Below are positions 3,363 to 10,105 of a stretch of DNA of 39,178 nt, one piece after another (positions within the stretch are counted from its first letter, which is position 1; every line of letters starts with the position of its first letter). The DNA is from an uncultured Candidatus Poseidoniales archaeon (GTDB lineage: Archaea > Thermoplasmatota > Poseidoniia > Poseidoniales > Thalassarchaeaceae), in assembly GCA_902573115.1 (NCBI GenBank), contig CACGIM010000007.1:1-39178 (forward strand). The letters run 5' to 3'. Made by a program: the position numbers and the translations under genes. The notes under the pieces were generated by a model. The model was not told the DNA's origin, did not search any database, and saw only the letters and a program-made list of their open reading frames with translations.

Positions 3363-3626
3363 ATGGCAGAACATATACCTGGAACGGGCCATGCAAATAA
3401 TACCAGAAGCCTAGTGAAAACTCTGACTTGGAGAACTATCGCGACAACTGACACGATTCTGATCGCATTTCTTCTAACTCGATCATGGGAGGTCGGACTT
3501 GGCATAGCAAGCATCGAAGTAGTGACCAAAATGGTTCTCTATTACCTACATGAGAGGGGTTGGAGCAGAGTTGATTGGGGCCTGGAGGACGTTGATCCAG
3601 AAACTGGAAAACCCGATCCCGTTTAA
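3363..3626 (+). CDS. DUF2061 small membrane protein (first copy)
   Basis: This 87-residue protein carries the DUF2061 pattern: a basic SLVKTLTWR segment, a first hydrophobic stretch (TTDTILIAFLLT), a second (GLGIASIEVVTKMVLYYL), and the ending LHERGWSRVDWG. The N-terminus is hydrophilic and rich in Gly, Asn and Thr. Members are short membrane proteins of unknown biochemical role; in some bacteria the domain is fused to or encoded near sulfate-assimilation genes, which are not seen here. A second copy lies about 75 bp downstream. The protein has a charged tail of about 20 residues absent from that copy. Confidence 0.85.
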   Translation: MAEHIPGTGHANNTRSLVKTLTWRTIATTDTILIAFLLTRSWEVGLGIASIEVVTKMVLYYLHERGWSRVDWGLEDVDPETGKPDPV

Positions 3627-3702: not shown

Positions 3703-3912
3703 ATGGGACAGACTAGGTCGCGCAGCATTATCAAGGCGGCTACTTGGAGGGCCATTGCAACTCTCACTGGAGTGGGCATAGTTTTGCTACTTACCGGTGA
3801 ACTGGAGCATGGAGTCACCTTCGCTTTAGCCGATGTTTCTTTGAAAATGATGTTTTATTATATGCATGAGAGAGGATGGGAAATGGTTGGATGGGGAATA
3901 TTTTCAGACTAA
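3703..3912 (+). CDS. DUF2061 small membrane protein (second copy)
   Basis: A 69-residue paralogue of the preceding gene with the same order of elements: IIKAATWRAIATLTG, a hydrophobic stretch, FALADVSLKMMFYYMHERGW, and a WG tail. The two proteins align end to end but differ at many positions, so the duplication is not recent. ATG 3703 is chosen; an in-frame TTG lies immediately before it. An AT-rich stretch at 3662-3679 could carry its own promoter. The stop overlaps the stop of the convergent molybdopterin oxidoreductase gene by a few bases. Confidence 0.8.
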   Translation: MGQTRSRSIIKAATWRAIATLTGVGIVLLLTGELEHGVTFALADVSLKMMFYYMHERGWEMVGWGIFSD

Positions 3913-6638
3913 CCTCTTTCAACAAACCAATGCTTTTTCTTAGGTGGAAGAGGCCTGTTCATCCATAGTGGGCGCCTCTCCCCACGAGGGTGGGTCTCCC
4001 TCTCCTTGGCCATTTCGTTCCATTTCTTGTAGTACTCGAAAGATTTGTTTGTGTCTACCTCGACATCTCCGTACCTCTCTCCTTCTTTTGGCTTGGTAAT
4101 CCTGACTTTCTGCAACCAGCAGTGAGCCCCGCTAACTGGATCGGGTTGGACTGCATGTGTAATGTTTTGATGGACCCCCCCATCTCTCCACCAAACTCTA
4201 TTTGTGTCCGGGTCATTAGATTTCCATGGTCTTACACCACTAATAGTCCTCATTCTCATCTTCCCATCTCCCAGGTTCTCTATCTCTACCTCGTTGGTCA
4301 TATATCGGTTCCCAGCATCCTGCTTCCTCCTCCACCTTCCAATATGATGGGAGCAACCGATTATTCCGGGCTTGATCCCCTCAGTGACCCAGACCTTGTC
4401 AATGAACCAACCAATTTCAGTCTCAACCTTCAGAAGATCTCCCTCTCCAACTCCGAGTTTCTTTGCATCGGATGGATGTACCCATAGTGGGTTCCTATGG
4501 CCGATCTCTGCAAGCCACTTGGCATTTGCAGACCTAGAGTGAATATGCTGGGGAAGTCGGAAGTTAGGCAGCAGACAGTACTCATCTTCGCCTTGCAGGT
4601 TATCCGGATGTACATGGCTTCTGACTTTGTAGTGTGGGATCGAGTGCTCAGGATAGCCGAATTCAATCATTGTCTCAGAGAACAACTCTTGTTTGCCGCT
4701 GGGGGTTGGCCAACCCTCTTCCTCATGTTTGTTGTAGGTTGCCTCCTCGATAAGAAAGGCACCGTGCTTCCTCATGTAACCTAATGGATCGGTTCCTTCT
4801 GCCTTTGCTGCCTCTGGCAATCCCGGGATTCTCTCGAACATGTATTGATAATACTCGTCAATGGTTATCCTTTCCCCCTTTCTGTAGGGGCTCATGAAAT
4901 GCTGCCTGATCCCCATTGTTCCATCATCAATCCTCCAGGAAAGCTCATTCCAGAATTCATCCTCTTCCCATACCTCGCCGGGGTTTACCTCGTGTGTGAA
5001 TTCAACCTCCTTGCCTTCCCTTCTCGCAAACTCCCTTAGAACCGGCTGTCTGAAAGCCACCCATTTGCCTGAGCTGGTAGCGTATGAGTTGACGTCATGC
5101 CTCTCCGAGGCATGCCCCATAGGAAGAACATAGTCTGCGAAAAAAGCAGTCTCGTTCCACGTTGGCGTAAGAGCCACGTGACACCCTATCGACTCCTCGT
5201 TTTGGAGCATCTCTATCCATGAAAATCCATCTGGGTATGTCCAAACAGGATTGAATACTCTAGTGAAATAAACATCCATAGAACCTCTTCCATCCTTTAC
5301 TAAGTGGGGCAGTATGTGACTCATCTCGTAGTGGGATAGGGTGTACTCTGGGGGGAAGTGTAGCTCGTTCCATCCATCCGGGTCCGGGGGGACATCAAAT
5401 AAGTCCGGTTTATACTTCGACCAAGAGTTGGGAGAAGTACCTCCTTCCGCTCCAACGCTTCCAGTTAATACGTTAAGTAAATGCAGTGATCTACTTACTT
5501 GCCACCCACCAAGGTTGCCTATGGCAGCAGCCCTCCAGACGTGAGTTGAGAGCCTGCTTCCTGCGGAAGCTATCAACTCGCCAACTTCAATCACCTGTTC
5601 TACGGGTATCCTACACTCCTCTGCAGCAAACTCTGGGGTATATTCGGAGTACTCTTCTATCAAGAGCTGTATGAATCGGTCAAATTCCCTCGGTTCTGTA
5701 GGGTGATCCGCTTCCATCCACATCTTCCAGTTGACCCATTTCTCTAGGAAATCCCGATCATACCCTCCACTCTCCAAAATCATGCGAGACCATGCTAGGA
5801 ATAGTGCAGTCTCGGATCCCGGCCAAGTAGGTACCCAGTGGTCCGCCATTGCCGCTGTGTTTGATAGTCGGGGATCGATCACTACCAGCTTAGCCCCATC
5901 CATCATGCCCTCTAGGATTCTCTGTGCATGCGGGTTGAAGTAGTGGCCAGTCTCAAGGTGTGAGGATGTTAGTAGGATCACCTTAGCATTAGAGTGGTCA
6001 GGAGACGGCCTGTCATGTCGATGCCATAGTGCGTATCCTGTTCTTGCTCCCGCAGAACAAATGTTGGTGTGGCTATTATGGCCGTCTACGCCCCAAGCCT
6101 TCAAAATTCGATTAGTATATCCCTCATGACCCGGTCTACCTACATGATAGACCACTCTGTCCTTAGCGCCTGTATTTAGTGAGTCCCTTATCTTGGAGGA
6201 GATTTCATCAATTGCTTTATCCCATGAAATCCTCTCCCAGCCACCTTCCCCTCTAGCCCCGACTCTCTTCATCGGGTGCAGGATTCTTTCAGTATCGTTA
6301 ATCTGATTTATTGTCGCCGGACCTTTGGCGCAATTCCTACCTCTGCTACCAGGATGGTGTGGGTTGCCTTCGAACTTGGAAACCTGCCCCGACTCCTTGT
6401 CGACATAAGCAAGAAGGCCACATGCAGATTCGCAGTTGAAACAGGTAGTTGGGACTAGGGAGTATCTTTTCTCAACCATCTTAGGCCACTCATTAGCATC
6501 CAGTTCCACATGATCATGCCAGTCTTCAGGATCCGGAAATGTCCTCAGGGGCCCAATCGAACCTTCGGATTTCTTTCTGTCCAGGTTAGGGATTATTCTC
6601 AATCTTTGAGCTATGTTTTCGATAAACGTTCTAGGCAT
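3909..6638 (-). CDS. Molybdopterin (DMSO-reductase family) oxidoreductase catalytic subunit
   Basis: A 909-residue catalytic subunit of a complex iron-sulfur molybdoenzyme. An N-terminal [4Fe-4S] site is visible: C66, C69, C73 and C103 (CFNCESAC followed by NCAKGP). The bis-MGD-binding body follows (RISWDKAIDEIS, LVVIDPRLSNTA, DYVLPMGHASERHD), and the C-terminal molybdopterin-binding domain contains LPNFRLPQHIHSRS and NPLWVHPSDAKKLGV. C194 in HTNICSAGARTGY sits where family members carry the Mo ligand, so a Cys-ligated metal is expected. There is no twin-arginine signal, so the protein probably acts on the cytoplasmic side. The gene is last in an operon after the fused ferredoxin/NrfD-like gene 10 bp upstream. 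The substrate is not identifiable; polysulfide, thiosulfate, sulfite, formate and oxyanion enzymes share this plan. Confidence 0.9.
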   Translation of the reverse strand: MPRTFIENIAQRLRIIPNLDRKKSEGSIGPLRTFPDPEDWHDHVELDANEWPKMVEKRYSLVPTTCFNCESACGLLAYVDKESGQVSKFEGNPHHPGSRGRNCAKGPATINQINDTERILHPMKRVGARGEGGWERISWDKAIDEISSKIRDSLNTGAKDRVVYHVGRPGHEGYTNRILKAWGVDGHNSHTNICSAGARTGYALWHRHDRPSPDHSNAKVILLTSSHLETGHYFNPHAQRILEGMMDGAKLVVIDPRLSNTAAMADHWVPTWPGSETALFLAWSRMILESGGYDRDFLEKWVNWKMWMEADHPTEPREFDRFIQLLIEEYSEYTPEFAAEECRIPVEQVIEVGELIASAGSRLSTHVWRAAAIGNLGGWQVSRSLHLLNVLTGSVGAEGGTSPNSWSKYKPDLFDVPPDPDGWNELHFPPEYTLSHYEMSHILPHLVKDGRGSMDVYFTRVFNPVWTYPDGFSWIEMLQNEESIGCHVALTPTWNETAFFADYVLPMGHASERHDVNSYATSSGKWVAFRQPVLREFARREGKEVEFTHEVNPGEVWEEDEFWNELSWRIDDGTMGIRQHFMSPYRKGERITIDEYYQYMFERIPGLPEAAKAEGTDPLGYMRKHGAFLIEEATYNKHEEEGWPTPSGKQELFSETMIEFGYPEHSIPHYKVRSHVHPDNLQGEDEYCLLPNFRLPQHIHSRSANAKWLAEIGHRNPLWVHPSDAKKLGVGEGDLLKVETEIGWFIDKVWVTEGIKPGIIGCSHHIGRWRRKQDAGNRYMTNEVEIENLGDGKMRMRTISGVRPWKSNDPDTNRVWWRDGGVHQNITHAVQPDPVSGAHCWLQKVRITKPKEGERYGDVEVDTNKSFEYYKKWNEMAKERETHPRGERRPLWMNRPLPPKKKHWFVERG

Positions 6639-6647
6639 TCTATTACC

Positions 6648-8060
6648 TCACAAAAGTGGCTCCATCTGGGGTTTTTTCACTAGGTTATTATCATGCATCA
6701 GCACTGCAGTCAGTGTTATCACCCCAAGTCCAATTGCCACTGGATCATTGGTTGCAATGGGAATGAATACTGCAGTACCAATTACCAGAGTCTCAAGGAG
6801 AAACTTTGCTGGCAGTAGGGAATCTTCGGACCATGATCTCCCCTTTGCTTGCATCAGAAGCCAAGCGGTGTAAACCCCGGTAAGAGTTGCAAGTGGAAAT
6901 CCGGGTATAGCCAGATAAGTAAGTAAAGACCTATCCATATCTAGGATTAAAACAACGGCGCTTGCTGCTAGTATGGCGCCATATCCCGAGAGTATGAACG
7001 CCCCCTTAACCAACCAAGAATCCCAATTCGGACGCAATAGGACATACAGGAATCTCTCTGGCCTATCCAAGTCCATGACTAACAGAAGCCCGGTTATTGC
7101 AAGGAAGAGAATCCCGATGCCAATTGTCGCCGCCCAAAGCGAATCAGTCATTTCAACTAATCCAAGCAGCATGGAAATTACTGCGATGGCGTAAGTTCCA
7201 GAACTAATTCCCTTAGTCCAAATGTAAGTTGTGACCTCCCATCCCCAAAGAATTCCCTTGCTGGGTTGGTCATAACTTCTCTTAGCATCGCTAGGATCTT
7301 CAGCAAGTCTCTCCATAACATCTCTGATGATTGCTTGGTCCCTTGGTGCAGATTGCTTGGCCTTTTTCTCTAGTGCTAGCTGTACTATCATGGATGTCGT
7401 GTCTGCTTCCTCAAGGCGCGTCTCAGCATATTTAGCGAAATGGCCAACCCCAAAAGACTGCTCTGTCCACATTCCCGAACCGGTCACTTCTGTGGCCGAT
7501 GGATCTAGCATTTCTTCGCTAGCCTCGATATAGAATACGTTAGGCTTAGCCCCAGAATCAGGCTTCCTTACTGTCGTGTTCTGCGTCGAAACAATTTGGG
7601 CAATCTTGGATTCTGGGTCATCAAGATCTCCAGAGACAATTGACTCTGTAGGGCAGACAATTACGCACGCAGGCTCATAGGAGTGCTCTATTCTATGGGC
7701 GCAGTAGTTGCACTTTGCCGCCGTACCGTTATCAGGATCGATGTACAGGGCGTCATATGGACAGGCCTGCATGCATGACTTGCACCCTATGCAACGATCA
7801 TTATCGAAATCCACAATTCCATCTGATCTGTTGAATAAGGCGGTTGTCGGGCAGATTGTTGTACACGGTGAATCCTCACAATGATTACATCTGTGGACAC
7901 TGAATTCACGGGTCGAATCAGGGTAAGTCCCCTTTTCGATGTACTTTACGTGGGTCCTATTGACCCCAATTGGTACATCATGCTCAGATTTGCATGCTAC
8001 AGTGCATGCATGGCATCCTATGCATGTCCGGTTATCTATAACGAATCCGAAGTTTGTCAT
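6648..8060 (-). CDS. Four-cluster ferredoxin fused to NrfD-like membrane anchor
   Basis: One 470-residue polypeptide joins what are usually two subunits of a molybdoenzyme. Residues 1-180 form an electron-transfer domain with four Cys clusters (CIGCHACTVACKSEHDVP, CNHCEDSPCTTICP, CIGCKSCMQACPYDAL, CNYCAHRIEHSYEPAC), consistent with four [4Fe-4S] centres. After a hydrophilic linker of about 80 residues come about six membrane helices with the NrfD-type segment DLDRPERFLYVLLRPNWDSW, expected to exchange electrons with quinone. Typical NrfD proteins have eight or more helices, so the anchor is short. ATG 8060 is chosen because MTNFGFVIDNRTCIGC is a normal family start; the frame stays open to 8147 but would overlap the TraB gene. 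The Mo subunit follows 10 bp downstream. Confidence 0.9.
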   Translation of the reverse strand: MTNFGFVIDNRTCIGCHACTVACKSEHDVPIGVNRTHVKYIEKGTYPDSTREFSVHRCNHCEDSPCTTICPTTALFNRSDGIVDFDNDRCIGCKSCMQACPYDALYIDPDNGTAAKCNYCAHRIEHSYEPACVIVCPTESIVSGDLDDPESKIAQIVSTQNTTVRKPDSGAKPNVFYIEASEEMLDPSATEVTGSGMWTEQSFGVGHFAKYAETRLEEADTTSMIVQLALEKKAKQSAPRDQAIIRDVMERLAEDPSDAKRSYDQPSKGILWGWEVTTYIWTKGISSGTYAIAVISMLLGLVEMTDSLWAATIGIGILFLAITGLLLVMDLDRPERFLYVLLRPNWDSWLVKGAFILSGYGAILAASAVVLILDMDRSLLTYLAIPGFPLATLTGVYTAWLLMQAKGRSWSEDSLLPAKFLLETLVIGTAVFIPIATNDPVAIGLGVITLTAVLMHDNNLVKKPQMEPLL

Positions 8061-8101: not shown

Positions 8102-9265
8102 TCACCCAATTAGTAATTCGTACAAGATGGTTGACCCCGCAAGCCATGCTCCAACCATGGAACCAATATTTCCCATTGCTGTGACCATGAGAACTCTCCC
8201 GACTCTATTTTTCCAGAAAAGAGACACTTCGTCTAATGCTAGGAAGTCCTGAGCGTCTTTGCCGGTCGGAGATGCAACTTTTAGCTGCGTATATCCAGCA
8301 AACCATCCTGCAGCTAGAGTGGGGTTGAGGGAGGTTATTGGCGAAGCGATTGCTCCAATTACGATTGCGAGGGGATGACCTCTCGCTAATAGGACACCCA
8401 AACCAGCCAATATTGCGTTTAGGACAACCCAGGTCTTTGCAGTCTCCATTATAGTTTCAAACTCTCCATTGTAAGCCATCCATCCAACTGCGCCAAATAG
8501 GAAGAGGGGAATTGCCGCCATCAGGATCTTCGGCCACACGGATTTACTCGGTTGCTCGGACAGTTCTGCCAATCTAGAGGTAATTTCCAGAGAAGGCTGC
8601 TTTAGGTTATTTGCCACACCGGGAAGATGGCCGGCCCCAACGACAGCAAGAATCTTGCCTTTACCCCTTATCTGCTGAATTCTCCCCGCTAGAAATGCAT
8701 CCCTTTCGTCAATCAATACCTCGCCGGCTCGAGGGGCTACTTCTCTGGCTTCTTCCATCATCTTGCTTAGCAAATCGGAGTCACCAAGAACATCATCTAT
8801 GGAAAAATCATCTTCCTCTTCTTCCCAAAGTAGCGTGTTAATTACTCTCCATTTCTCTCGAAAACCCATCCTGTGCCATGCCCTCCTAAGTGTGATCACC
8901 ACGTCTCTGTCAATCATTTCAACTGGGATATCTGACTCCTCAGCTGCCTTCACCGCCGCGAGCAACTCGGCTCCGGGCTTCTCGCCCGTCGAAATGCCCA
9001 TTCTCCTCTGCTGACTCGCCAAGGCAGATTGAAGTAAGATCATCAAGGATCTTCCTTCATTAATTATTTTCAACAAATCCTCCGAGTCCAAAGACTCAGG
9101 CTCAGTTAGGGCCTTCAATCTTGATTGGCAAAGCTCGACAGCTACTACTTCGGGCCCCCAATTCTCGATCTGAGATTTCACTAAATCAACCGATTCGCTA
9201 CTTATGTGGGCAGTCCCCAAAATCCTTAATTTCTCATCAATGTCTATTATGTTCTTGCTTTCCAT
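8102..9265 (-). CDS. TraB/PrgY-family membrane protein
   Basis: A 387-residue protein with the TraB (pheromone shutdown, PrgY) layout. The soluble N-terminal half carries a first conserved histidine motif (LGTAHISSES), an acidic VVAVELCQSR segment, an EMIDRDV motif, and a second histidine motif (VVGAGHLPG). About four hydrophobic segments follow from residue 240. The fold relates to the Tiki/GumN group of putative metal-dependent peptidases, but the archaeal role is unknown. A clear ribosome binding site (GAGGTGA, 6 nt before ATG) supports the start. It sits 6 bp after folP and about 40 bp before the ferredoxin-NrfD gene, so it is probably co-transcribed with them; no functional link is evident. 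Confidence 0.88.
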   Translation of the reverse strand: MESKNIIDIDEKLRILGTAHISSESVDLVKSQIENWGPEVVAVELCQSRLKALTEPESLDSEDLLKIINEGRSLMILLQSALASQQRRMGISTGEKPGAELLAAVKAAEESDIPVEMIDRDVVITLRRAWHRMGFREKWRVINTLLWEEEEDDFSIDDVLGDSDLLSKMMEEAREVAPRAGEVLIDERDAFLAGRIQQIRGKGKILAVVGAGHLPGVANNLKQPSLEITSRLAELSEQPSKSVWPKILMAAIPLFLFGAVGWMAYNGEFETIMETAKTWVVLNAILAGLGVLLARGHPLAIVIGAIASPITSLNPTLAAGWFAGYTQLKVASPTGKDAQDFLALDEVSLFWKNRVGRVLMVTAMGNIGSMVGAWLAGSTILYELLIG

Positions 9266-9271
9266 AATTCT

Positions 9272-10105
9272 TCACCTCAGAGATTCCATTGCAGAAAACA
9301 AGTCTTTGTGTTCGACCACATCATGGACTCTTACGATATCAACACCCTTTTCTGGTGATCTTGCCGCAATACCTAGGGTACCAGAAAGCCTCTCATCGCT
9401 CTCTTTTCTACCAAGAAGATCGCCAAACATGCTTTTCCTACTTACCCCCCACATCAGACTCATTTCCTGATTTGGCATAATATTCCTTCCCGACGACAAT
9501 AATTCTAGGTTATGCTCTAATTTCTTCCCGAATCCAATTCCCGGATCAACAACCAATCGAGAAGGCTCAATTCCTAAATTAGTTAATTTCGAAGTTGTGT
9601 GGTAAAGAAAATCCCTCACTTCAGAAACGACATCATCGTATTGAGGATCATACTGCATGTTCTCCGGAAGCCCCTTCATATGCATCAAACAAATTGGGCA
9701 ATCATAATCCGAAATTACCCGAATCATTCCCGGGTCACTCAATGAGGAGACATCATTGACCATATCGGCACCAACAGCGAGAGACTCTCTTGCAACCAAT
9801 GACCGCCTCGTGTCTACCGATATGCAGATGTCCGGAAGCTCATCTCTGATGCATTCTATTGCCGGAACCACTCTTGCTAACTCCTCTTCTTGACTCACTG
9901 ATTTGGACCCCGGGCGAGTGGACTCTCCCCCTACATCAATCCAATCAGCCCCTTCCTTAGACATCCTGAGGGCTCTGGATCGCACATCTTGAAGATTAGG
10001 GGCCCTAGACCCCTCGTGAAATGAGTCCGGAGTGACATTAATCACTCCCATGATAAGTGGAAATCCACTGTCTCGGCGTTTTAGCATAGGTCGCCAGTCG
10101 GCCAT
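9272..10105 (-). CDS. folP: Dihydropteroate synthase
   Basis: A 277-residue TIM-barrel enzyme that joins the pterin diphosphate to p-aminobenzoate in folate synthesis. Diagnostic segments are MGVINVTPDSFHEGSR, DVGGESTRPGS, ISVDTRRSLVARES, NDVSSLSDPGM, LMHMKGLPENMQ, VVDPGIGFGKKLEHN and the C-terminal VRVHDVVEHK. All the usual substrate loops appear intact. A second ATG lies six codons in. The gene heads a leftward operon and shares its upstream region with a divergent gene; an AT-rich TCATAAAG box about 25 nt before the ATG suggests a leaderless transcript. Canonical FolP is unevenly distributed among archaea, so its presence suggests bacterial-type folate synthesis in this lineage. Confidence 0.95.
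   Translation of the reverse strand: MADWRPMLKRRDSGFPLIMGVINVTPDSFHEGSRAPNLQDVRSRALRMSKEGADWIDVGGESTRPGSKSVSQEEELARVVPAIECIRDELPDICISVDTRRSLVARESLAVGADMVNDVSSLSDPGMIRVISDYDCPICLMHMKGLPENMQYDPQYDDVVSEVRDFLYHTTSKLTNLGIEPSRLVVDPGIGFGKKLEHNLELLSSGRNIMPNQEMSLMWGVSRKSMFGDLLGRKESDERLSGTLGIAARSPEKGVDIVRVHDVVEHKDLFSAMESLR

Follow-up and report, generated by a model that had tools for sequence, protein, structure and literature searches.

Among the described systems closest to the locus discussed here, PsrABC has separate B and C genes and an exported catalytic side. In the SoeA lineage, the catalytic subunit is described as cytoplasmic, with a Cys ligand (PMC10100899). PSRLC3 is described as having two genes (PMC5473276) and has been called a sulfite-oxidizing system of green sulfur bacteria (PMC6338057). 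For NrfD proteins, a quinone site is placed in TMH1–4, and each four-helix bundle is said to hold one proton half-channel; the proposed gate is an Arg conserved in TMH8, which is reported for SoeC (PMC8076601). In Candidatus Poseidoniales (marine group II), an order for which two families and 21 genera have been described (PMC6461757), a molybdopterin oxidoreductase, a 4Fe-4S ferredoxin, and TraB/PrgY were noted together, and DMSO respiration was suggested (PMC6741140, citing Martin-Cuadrado 2008). Here, we describe a locus of this order with the same trio of genes. We argue that its molybdoenzyme module, consisting of a catalytic subunit (A) and a fused ferredoxin/anchor chain (BC), is quite likely a SoeABC/PSRLC3-type sulfite:quinone oxidoreductase that faces the cytoplasm.

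The window, i.e., the whole stretch of 39,178 nucleotides that was analyzed, comes from an assembly of 979,519 bases that is 63% complete. The host order, as sampled here, comprises two families, 22 genera, and 318 genomes. The locus has the following features:

3363..3626, plus strand: DUF2061 membrane protein, convergent with A (domain); a conserved neighbor in most loci of the genus.
3703..3912, plus strand: second DUF2061 protein, 69 aa (domain).
3909..6638, minus strand: A, Mo-bisPGD catalytic subunit, 909 aa, without a twin-arginine signal (Pfam, PDB matches, sequence).
6057..6059, minus strand: Cys194 of A, probable Mo ligand (motif HTNICSAG at a conserved position, from which the ligand role is predicted).
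6330..6443, minus strand: ligands of the FS0 [4Fe-4S] cluster of A, C66-x2-C69-x3-C73 ... C103 (sequence; Pfam Molybdop_Fe4S4, residues 61–114).
6648..8060, minus strand: BC, fused four-cluster ferredoxin and NrfD-like membrane anchor, 470 aa (ORF, Pfam, AlphaFold2 model).
6663..7244, minus strand: C part of BC, residues 273–466, six membrane helices, a shortened NrfD (alignment, model).
7461..8060, minus strand: B part of BC, residues 1–200, 16 Cys in four [4Fe-4S]-type motifs (sequence, Pfam).
8102..9265, minus strand: TraB/PrgY family gene, upstream of BC on the same strand (domain, gene order).
9272..10105, minus strand: dihydropteroate synthase (DHPS), upstream on the same strand (domain, gene order).

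The BC stop and the A start are separated by 9 bases. The BC frame opens at 8147; homologues begin at 8060, and a start there yields the 470-residue chain. In most loci of the genus, the tandem DUF2061 pair ends against A; it may have a link to sulfur metabolism. Elsewhere in the window, a flotillin/Band-7 gene is split in two (492–1493 and 1583–2023, both on the plus strand), while relatives have one ORF of ~470 aa (e.g., L028 3487–4902); the split is a frameshift or an assembly error.

A first-pass annotation of this DNA had proposed that the ferredoxin and the NrfD-like anchor are fused in one 470-residue chain. Indeed, BC is a single open frame that matches both Fer4_11 (E 6.7e-22) and NrfD (E 1e-15) in Pfam, and the 16 Cys residues fall in four cluster motifs. 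Among the 25 of 53 NCBIfam matches listed, no model was above its cut-off. The B part of the window is 59–65% identical to B of the fused chains of Chlorobium, Rhodococcus, and Natrinema. Within the host order, BC was matched at E <= 1e-60 in 78 of 318 genomes (its own included), representing 15 of 22 genera. Since so many genomes of the order match BC, and since the fusion recurs across many phyla, it is not an assembly artifact.

The extent of that recurrence was examined by scanning genome contigs with a mixed A alignment, which gave at least 580 tblastn-confirmed stretches when any superfamily relative at E <= 1e-3 was counted. The best 80 were kept for reading the B/C architecture. Both B and C were recognized in 67 of these 80 loci, spread over many phyla, and they are fused in all 67; four of the remaining loci have only the C half, at a contig edge, and nine have neither half in the stretch. 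The taxa with fused BC include Chlorobium, Chloroflexota, and Bacteroidota, among others, and the same architecture is carried by Rhodococcus, Thermomicrobium, and haloarchaeal plasmids, with five plasmid loci and Halomarina read as fused. In the plasmid records of haloarchaea, Rhodococcus jostii RHA1, and Thermomicrobium roseum, A is 50–54% identical over 96–99% of its length. With Chlorobium A as the query, 148 genomes yielded three further family members (60–63% identity) and remote relatives. Separate B and C genes occur in a more remote relative, Sulfurovum.

In a tree of A (a quick tree of 47 rows, with long-branch warnings), the 39 family rows form one group with a support of 100, inside which 17 rows from the archaeal order form one clade, also with a support of 100. 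A thus groups, with the same support, with those A proteins of Chlorobium, Bacteroidota, Chloroflexota, and haloarchaea whose partner is a fused BC. The B–C fusion is not new: it is normal in this enzyme family, where all 67 assessable loci have it, and its description as unusual was overstated. This clustering with a fused-BC subfamily largely refutes the novelty first seen in the module, by the criterion of the first-pass annotation itself; the subfamily may count as characterized insofar as PSRLC3 is called a sulfite-oxidizing system in the cited papers. The clade to which A and BC belong is a broad one of two-gene, fused systems; the Chlorobium complex is part of it, and so probably is PSRLC3. 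Because the family is much broader than three-gene SoeABC, surveys for three separate soe genes may miss members.

The catalytic subunit matches the Pfam families Molybdopterin (E 1.8e-16), Molybdop_Fe4S4 (3.5e-12), and Molydop_binding (2e-14), with no NCBIfam model above its cut-off among the 24 listed. Residues 1–45 contain no RR, i.e., no twin-arginine signal, as had been noted at first pass. Judged by this missing signal, the catalytic side is predicted to face the cytoplasm, and we consider the SoeABC-like orientation proposed earlier to be right. Two of 78 family A proteins have RRxF[LIM] within the first 60 residues; both instances lie just before the Fe-S motif rather than at the N-terminus. 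The suggestion of a Cys metal ligand also held: C194 (NICSAGAR) occupies the metal-ligand position and, from that position, is the probable Mo ligand. A motif scan found Cys at this position in 76 of 78 family A proteins, the other two being very long ORFs in which the scan fell short of the site.

Other genes of related type were seen in the order. Apart from A, a single PF00384 protein was found in the assembly to which the window belongs, an 846-aa frame (G000:C5:18349-19464(-), L001) that looks FdhF/YdeP-like. Two relatives (L024 5828–7663 and L025 7734–9371) have an extra four-cluster ferredoxin gene, with about 35–40% identity to B, which in L025 adjoins a large molybdoenzyme-like frame. 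These extra genes are probably nitrate reductase, an enzyme reported in two genera of marine group II (PMC6461757).

The neighboring genes point to sulfite as the substrate. We read 42 loci of the order that have BC and A, a non-random set in which 22 come from the first 60 relatives and 20 were picked to spread over genera. In 13 of the 42 loci, a persulfide-dioxygenase-like gene that combines metallo-beta-lactamase (MBL) and rhodanese domains lies 16–63 bases upstream of BC on the same strand; TusA and DsrE-like genes are present in 11 loci each. TauE lies 2–107 bases downstream on the same strand in 15 loci, and is convergent at a distance of 700–800 bases in two more. The MBL+rhodanese gene is present in 9 of 15 genera, and the best PDB matches of its protein are 3tp9, 3r2u, and 4ysb, which we take to be persulfide dioxygenase-type proteins. 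A dioxygenase search of 60 relatives gave a match at E <= 1e-10 in 23 of them, and the two strongest matches (4e-29 and 1.5e-24) are both directly upstream of BC. TauE-family transporters and MoaA are found in 57 and 56 of the 60 relatives, respectively, in a phylogenetic profile, so their presence alone is uninformative.

The order of genes is TusA, DsrE-like, MBL+rhodanese, BC, A, TauE in one locus (L043), and DHPS-TraB-TusA-DsrE-dioxygenase-BC-A-TauE-DUF2061-DUF2061-thiolase in another (L245). The window reads DHPS-TraB-BC-A-DUF2061-DUF2061-thiolase, and is the same place as L245 with the helper genes missing. In other genera, the sulfur genes sit between the TraB/PrgY gene and BC. For the window's genus, none of 28 genomes has a dioxygenase-like match at E <= 1e-10. 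Among 16 loci of the genus, some of them cut by contig ends, none has the dioxygenase (MBL), TusA, or DsrE, and one keeps TauE. With the helper genes gone from the locus, any sulfite would have to come from elsewhere in this genus.

Of 86 family loci outside the order, 41 have a gene for a dioxygenase-like (MBL+rhodanese), SulP, TauE, or DsrE protein nearby, vs none of 26 control loci, the controls being loci on hand rather than a random sample. Within the fetched stretches of the 86 loci, MBL+rhodanese was found in 27, SulP in 18, DsrE in 9, and TauE in 8; the other 45 have none of the four families nearby. Among 17 loci found by clustering, 11 have SulP <=150 bases from A. In Rhodococcus, genes for TauE, rhodanese, DsrE, TusA, and MBL surround BC-A, and rhodanese and TauE are just upstream in two of three annotated haloarchaeal plasmids (Natrinema caseinilyticum and Halomicrococcus). 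The Thermomicrobium and Natrinema halophilum loci have no sulfur neighbors. The plasmid of Halomarina sp. PSR21 has xsc and pta ~6 kb ahead of BC-A, all oriented alike. The xsc-pta pathway yields sulfite. In Ruegeria, SoeABC is annotated close to pta and tauR (PMC4334477). In 13 genomes read out of the 148 with Xsc above the cut-off, the surroundings of Xsc contain no SoeABC and one DsrMKJOP-like set (L165), and no SoeABC was found near xsc on plasmids from Ruegeria, Cereibacter, Marinovum, and a Rhodobacteraceae strain. A Mrp/NBP35-family ATPase gene is directly 3′ of A in four haloarchaeal and Rhodococcus loci (L049, L050, L047, and L207), perhaps for Fe-S or cofactor assembly. Because the neighboring genes point to sulfite, the new substrate once considered is not needed.

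The anchor had been described as having about six helices. An AlphaFold2 model of the window BC has six membrane helices (residues 273–298, 306–331, 349–372, 378–405, 416–431, and 440–466); its mean pLDDT is 66.5, with the helices mostly at 70–98 and the ferredoxin part poorly modeled. A model of the Chlorobium BC has eight. The best structural match of the six-helix model is PsrC (Z 14.8, 196 residues aligned, rmsd 3.7), on which the eight-helix model aligns 248 of 250 residues (Z 23.3, rmsd 3.0). BC is 443–492 residues long in the archaeal order (n = 39) vs 500–599 residues in 57 family members. Hydropathy counts, which are noisy, gave six helices in 24 and five in 15 of the archaeal chains, and eight in 23, nine in 16, seven in 15, and six in 3 of the 57 family members. 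MAFFT was inconsistent, with the last archaeal helix placed on TMH6 in one alignment and on TMH8 in another. Because the last residue of the window model, 470, superposes on PsrC residue 251, and because the C-terminal PQ motif is kept, TMH6–7 are tentatively favored as the lost helices.

The gate position was defined by alignment with TtrC R280 and two other NrfD proteins. It is Glu in 51 of 52 counted members of the fused family outside the order (5 more were unmatched by the pattern). In the archaeal order, the 38 counted chains have 14 Asp, 9 Gly, 6 Ile, 4 Ala, and 5 others; Sulfurovum, with separate subunits, has Lys. Given six helices and an altered gate, the enzyme can probably still pass electrons to quinone, and we infer that it has probably lost proton translocation. 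We consider the "minimal quinone-linked form" of the first-pass annotation to be right. Tentatively, and as a possible rather than a probable course of events, the archaeal anchor was cut to six helices and its second bundle, with one half-channel, was dismantled, leaving a natural minimal sulfite:quinone reductase without proton translocation; the family-wide Arg-to-Glu change would mean that coupling was altered before the helices were lost. As a naturally occurring deletion mutant, the six-helix anchor would bear on the open question whether subunits of the NrfD type are proton pumps.

In the proposed mechanism, the Mo-bisPGD site of A would oxidize sulfite to sulfate. Electrons would move from FS0 of A along the four B clusters to quinone, putatively bound by the first four-helix bundle (TMH1–4) of the C half, and would then enter the aerobic respiratory chain. 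The adjacent dioxygenase of many relatives would make sulfite from sulfane sulfur delivered by TusA/DsrE; TauE would be the exporter of sulfite or of an anion related to it. In the window's genus, where BC-A alone remain at the locus, sulfite would be supplied from elsewhere. If this is true, part of the very abundant marine group II of the surface ocean would be aerobic sulfite oxidizers with a persulfide-to-sulfite-to-sulfate operon, rather than DMSO respirers. Several observations count against the proposal: the helper genes are missing from the loci of the window's genus (apart from one TauE), 45 of the 86 family loci outside the order have none of the four sulfur families nearby, Thermomicrobium and Natrinema halophilum show no sulfur neighbors either, and in Beggiatoa leptomitoformis SoeABC proteins are reported to be undetected under conditions where the dioxygenase works (PMC11507549).

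Several other functions could be considered. The TusA and DsrE carriers, which adjoin in 11 of the 42 order loci each and also in Rhodococcus, would suit an enzyme that oxidizes another sulfur species instead of free sulfite (for example, thiosulfate, a persulfide, or a sulfonate that is carrier-bound or of low molecular weight). However, the dioxygenase-like neighbor, the Halomarina xsc, and TauE all indicate free sulfite, and A is present where the locus has no carriers, so we regard this as improbable. It is less probable still that A-BC runs in the opposite direction and, like PsrABC or PhsABC, uses quinol to reduce polysulfide, thiosulfate, or sulfur. The closest solved relatives of A and B, by PDB sequence search, are the Thermus PsrA and PsrB chains (2vpw), PsrC best matches the C model (Z 14.8), and the top NCBIfam model for A is PhsA, albeit at 191.2 bits, far under the cut-off of 694. 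A reductase of this type is nevertheless hard to reconcile with a cytoplasmic A that has no twin-arginine signal and with an oxygen-using type of enzyme next door, and the reference PhsA falls outside the family in the quick tree, with its long-branch warnings.

DMSO respiration, the published suggestion, draws on membership of the DMSO-reductase superfamily and on a match of A to the NCBIfam model dmsA_ynfE. That match, at 186.2 bits, is far below the cut-off of 777.7, the DMSO-reductase-family reference lies outside the clade in the tree, A has no twin-arginine signal, and the neighbors are those of sulfur oxidation; we give this function very little chance. The published reading of such genes is probably wrong, because the context points to sulfite and because PF00174 (the sulfite-oxidase family, the other molybdo sulfite oxidase fold) is found in 0 of 60 relatives vs 9 of 14 control genomes. 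The least likely alternative is that the donor is formate, arsenite, or some other compound. Superfamily resemblance would allow it, and an ArxA-like reference, so labeled from its ars-gene neighbors, is the nearest outgroup in the tree; yet ArxA-like proteins stay outside the family with a support of 100, and the fused-family loci read have no fdhD, fdhE, or ars neighbors.

Sulfurovum mangrovi (L052) is related in sequence, with A about 37% and B about 47% identical and the C end motif PQxxPLS common to both, but B and NrfD are two genes, the gate residue is Lys, and A is broken in that record. PsrABC of Thermus thermophilus (2vpw) offers the best structural match of the anchor and the best PDB sequence match of A and B; PsrC, however, aligns 248 residues with the eight-helix Chlorobium model and just 196 with the six-helix model of the window. 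SoeABC, as described for Allochromatium vinosum, Aquifex aeolicus, and Ruegeria pomeroyi, is alike in its MopB subunit with a Cys ligand position, cytoplasmic side, four-cluster ferredoxin, NrfD-like anchor, and link to sulfur and sulfonate genes. It has three subunits vs two genes here (B and C being fused), an eight-helix anchor vs six helices in the window-type anchor, and a gate Arg reported for SoeC (PMC8076601) vs Glu at the aligned position in the fused family. A-BC would work like SoeABC, but for these three reasons, we do not classify it as such. PSRLC3 is alike in having two genes. The Chlorobium loci L114, L118, and L124, which may be the PSRLC3 genes given the two-gene description, consist of exactly A and a fused BC, and the Chlorobium A lies in one clade with that of the window; a Chlorobium BC is modeled with eight membrane helices vs six in the window BC. 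What is new here, as judged from the models, is the order-wide six-helix anchor, in which two of the usual eight helices are lost.
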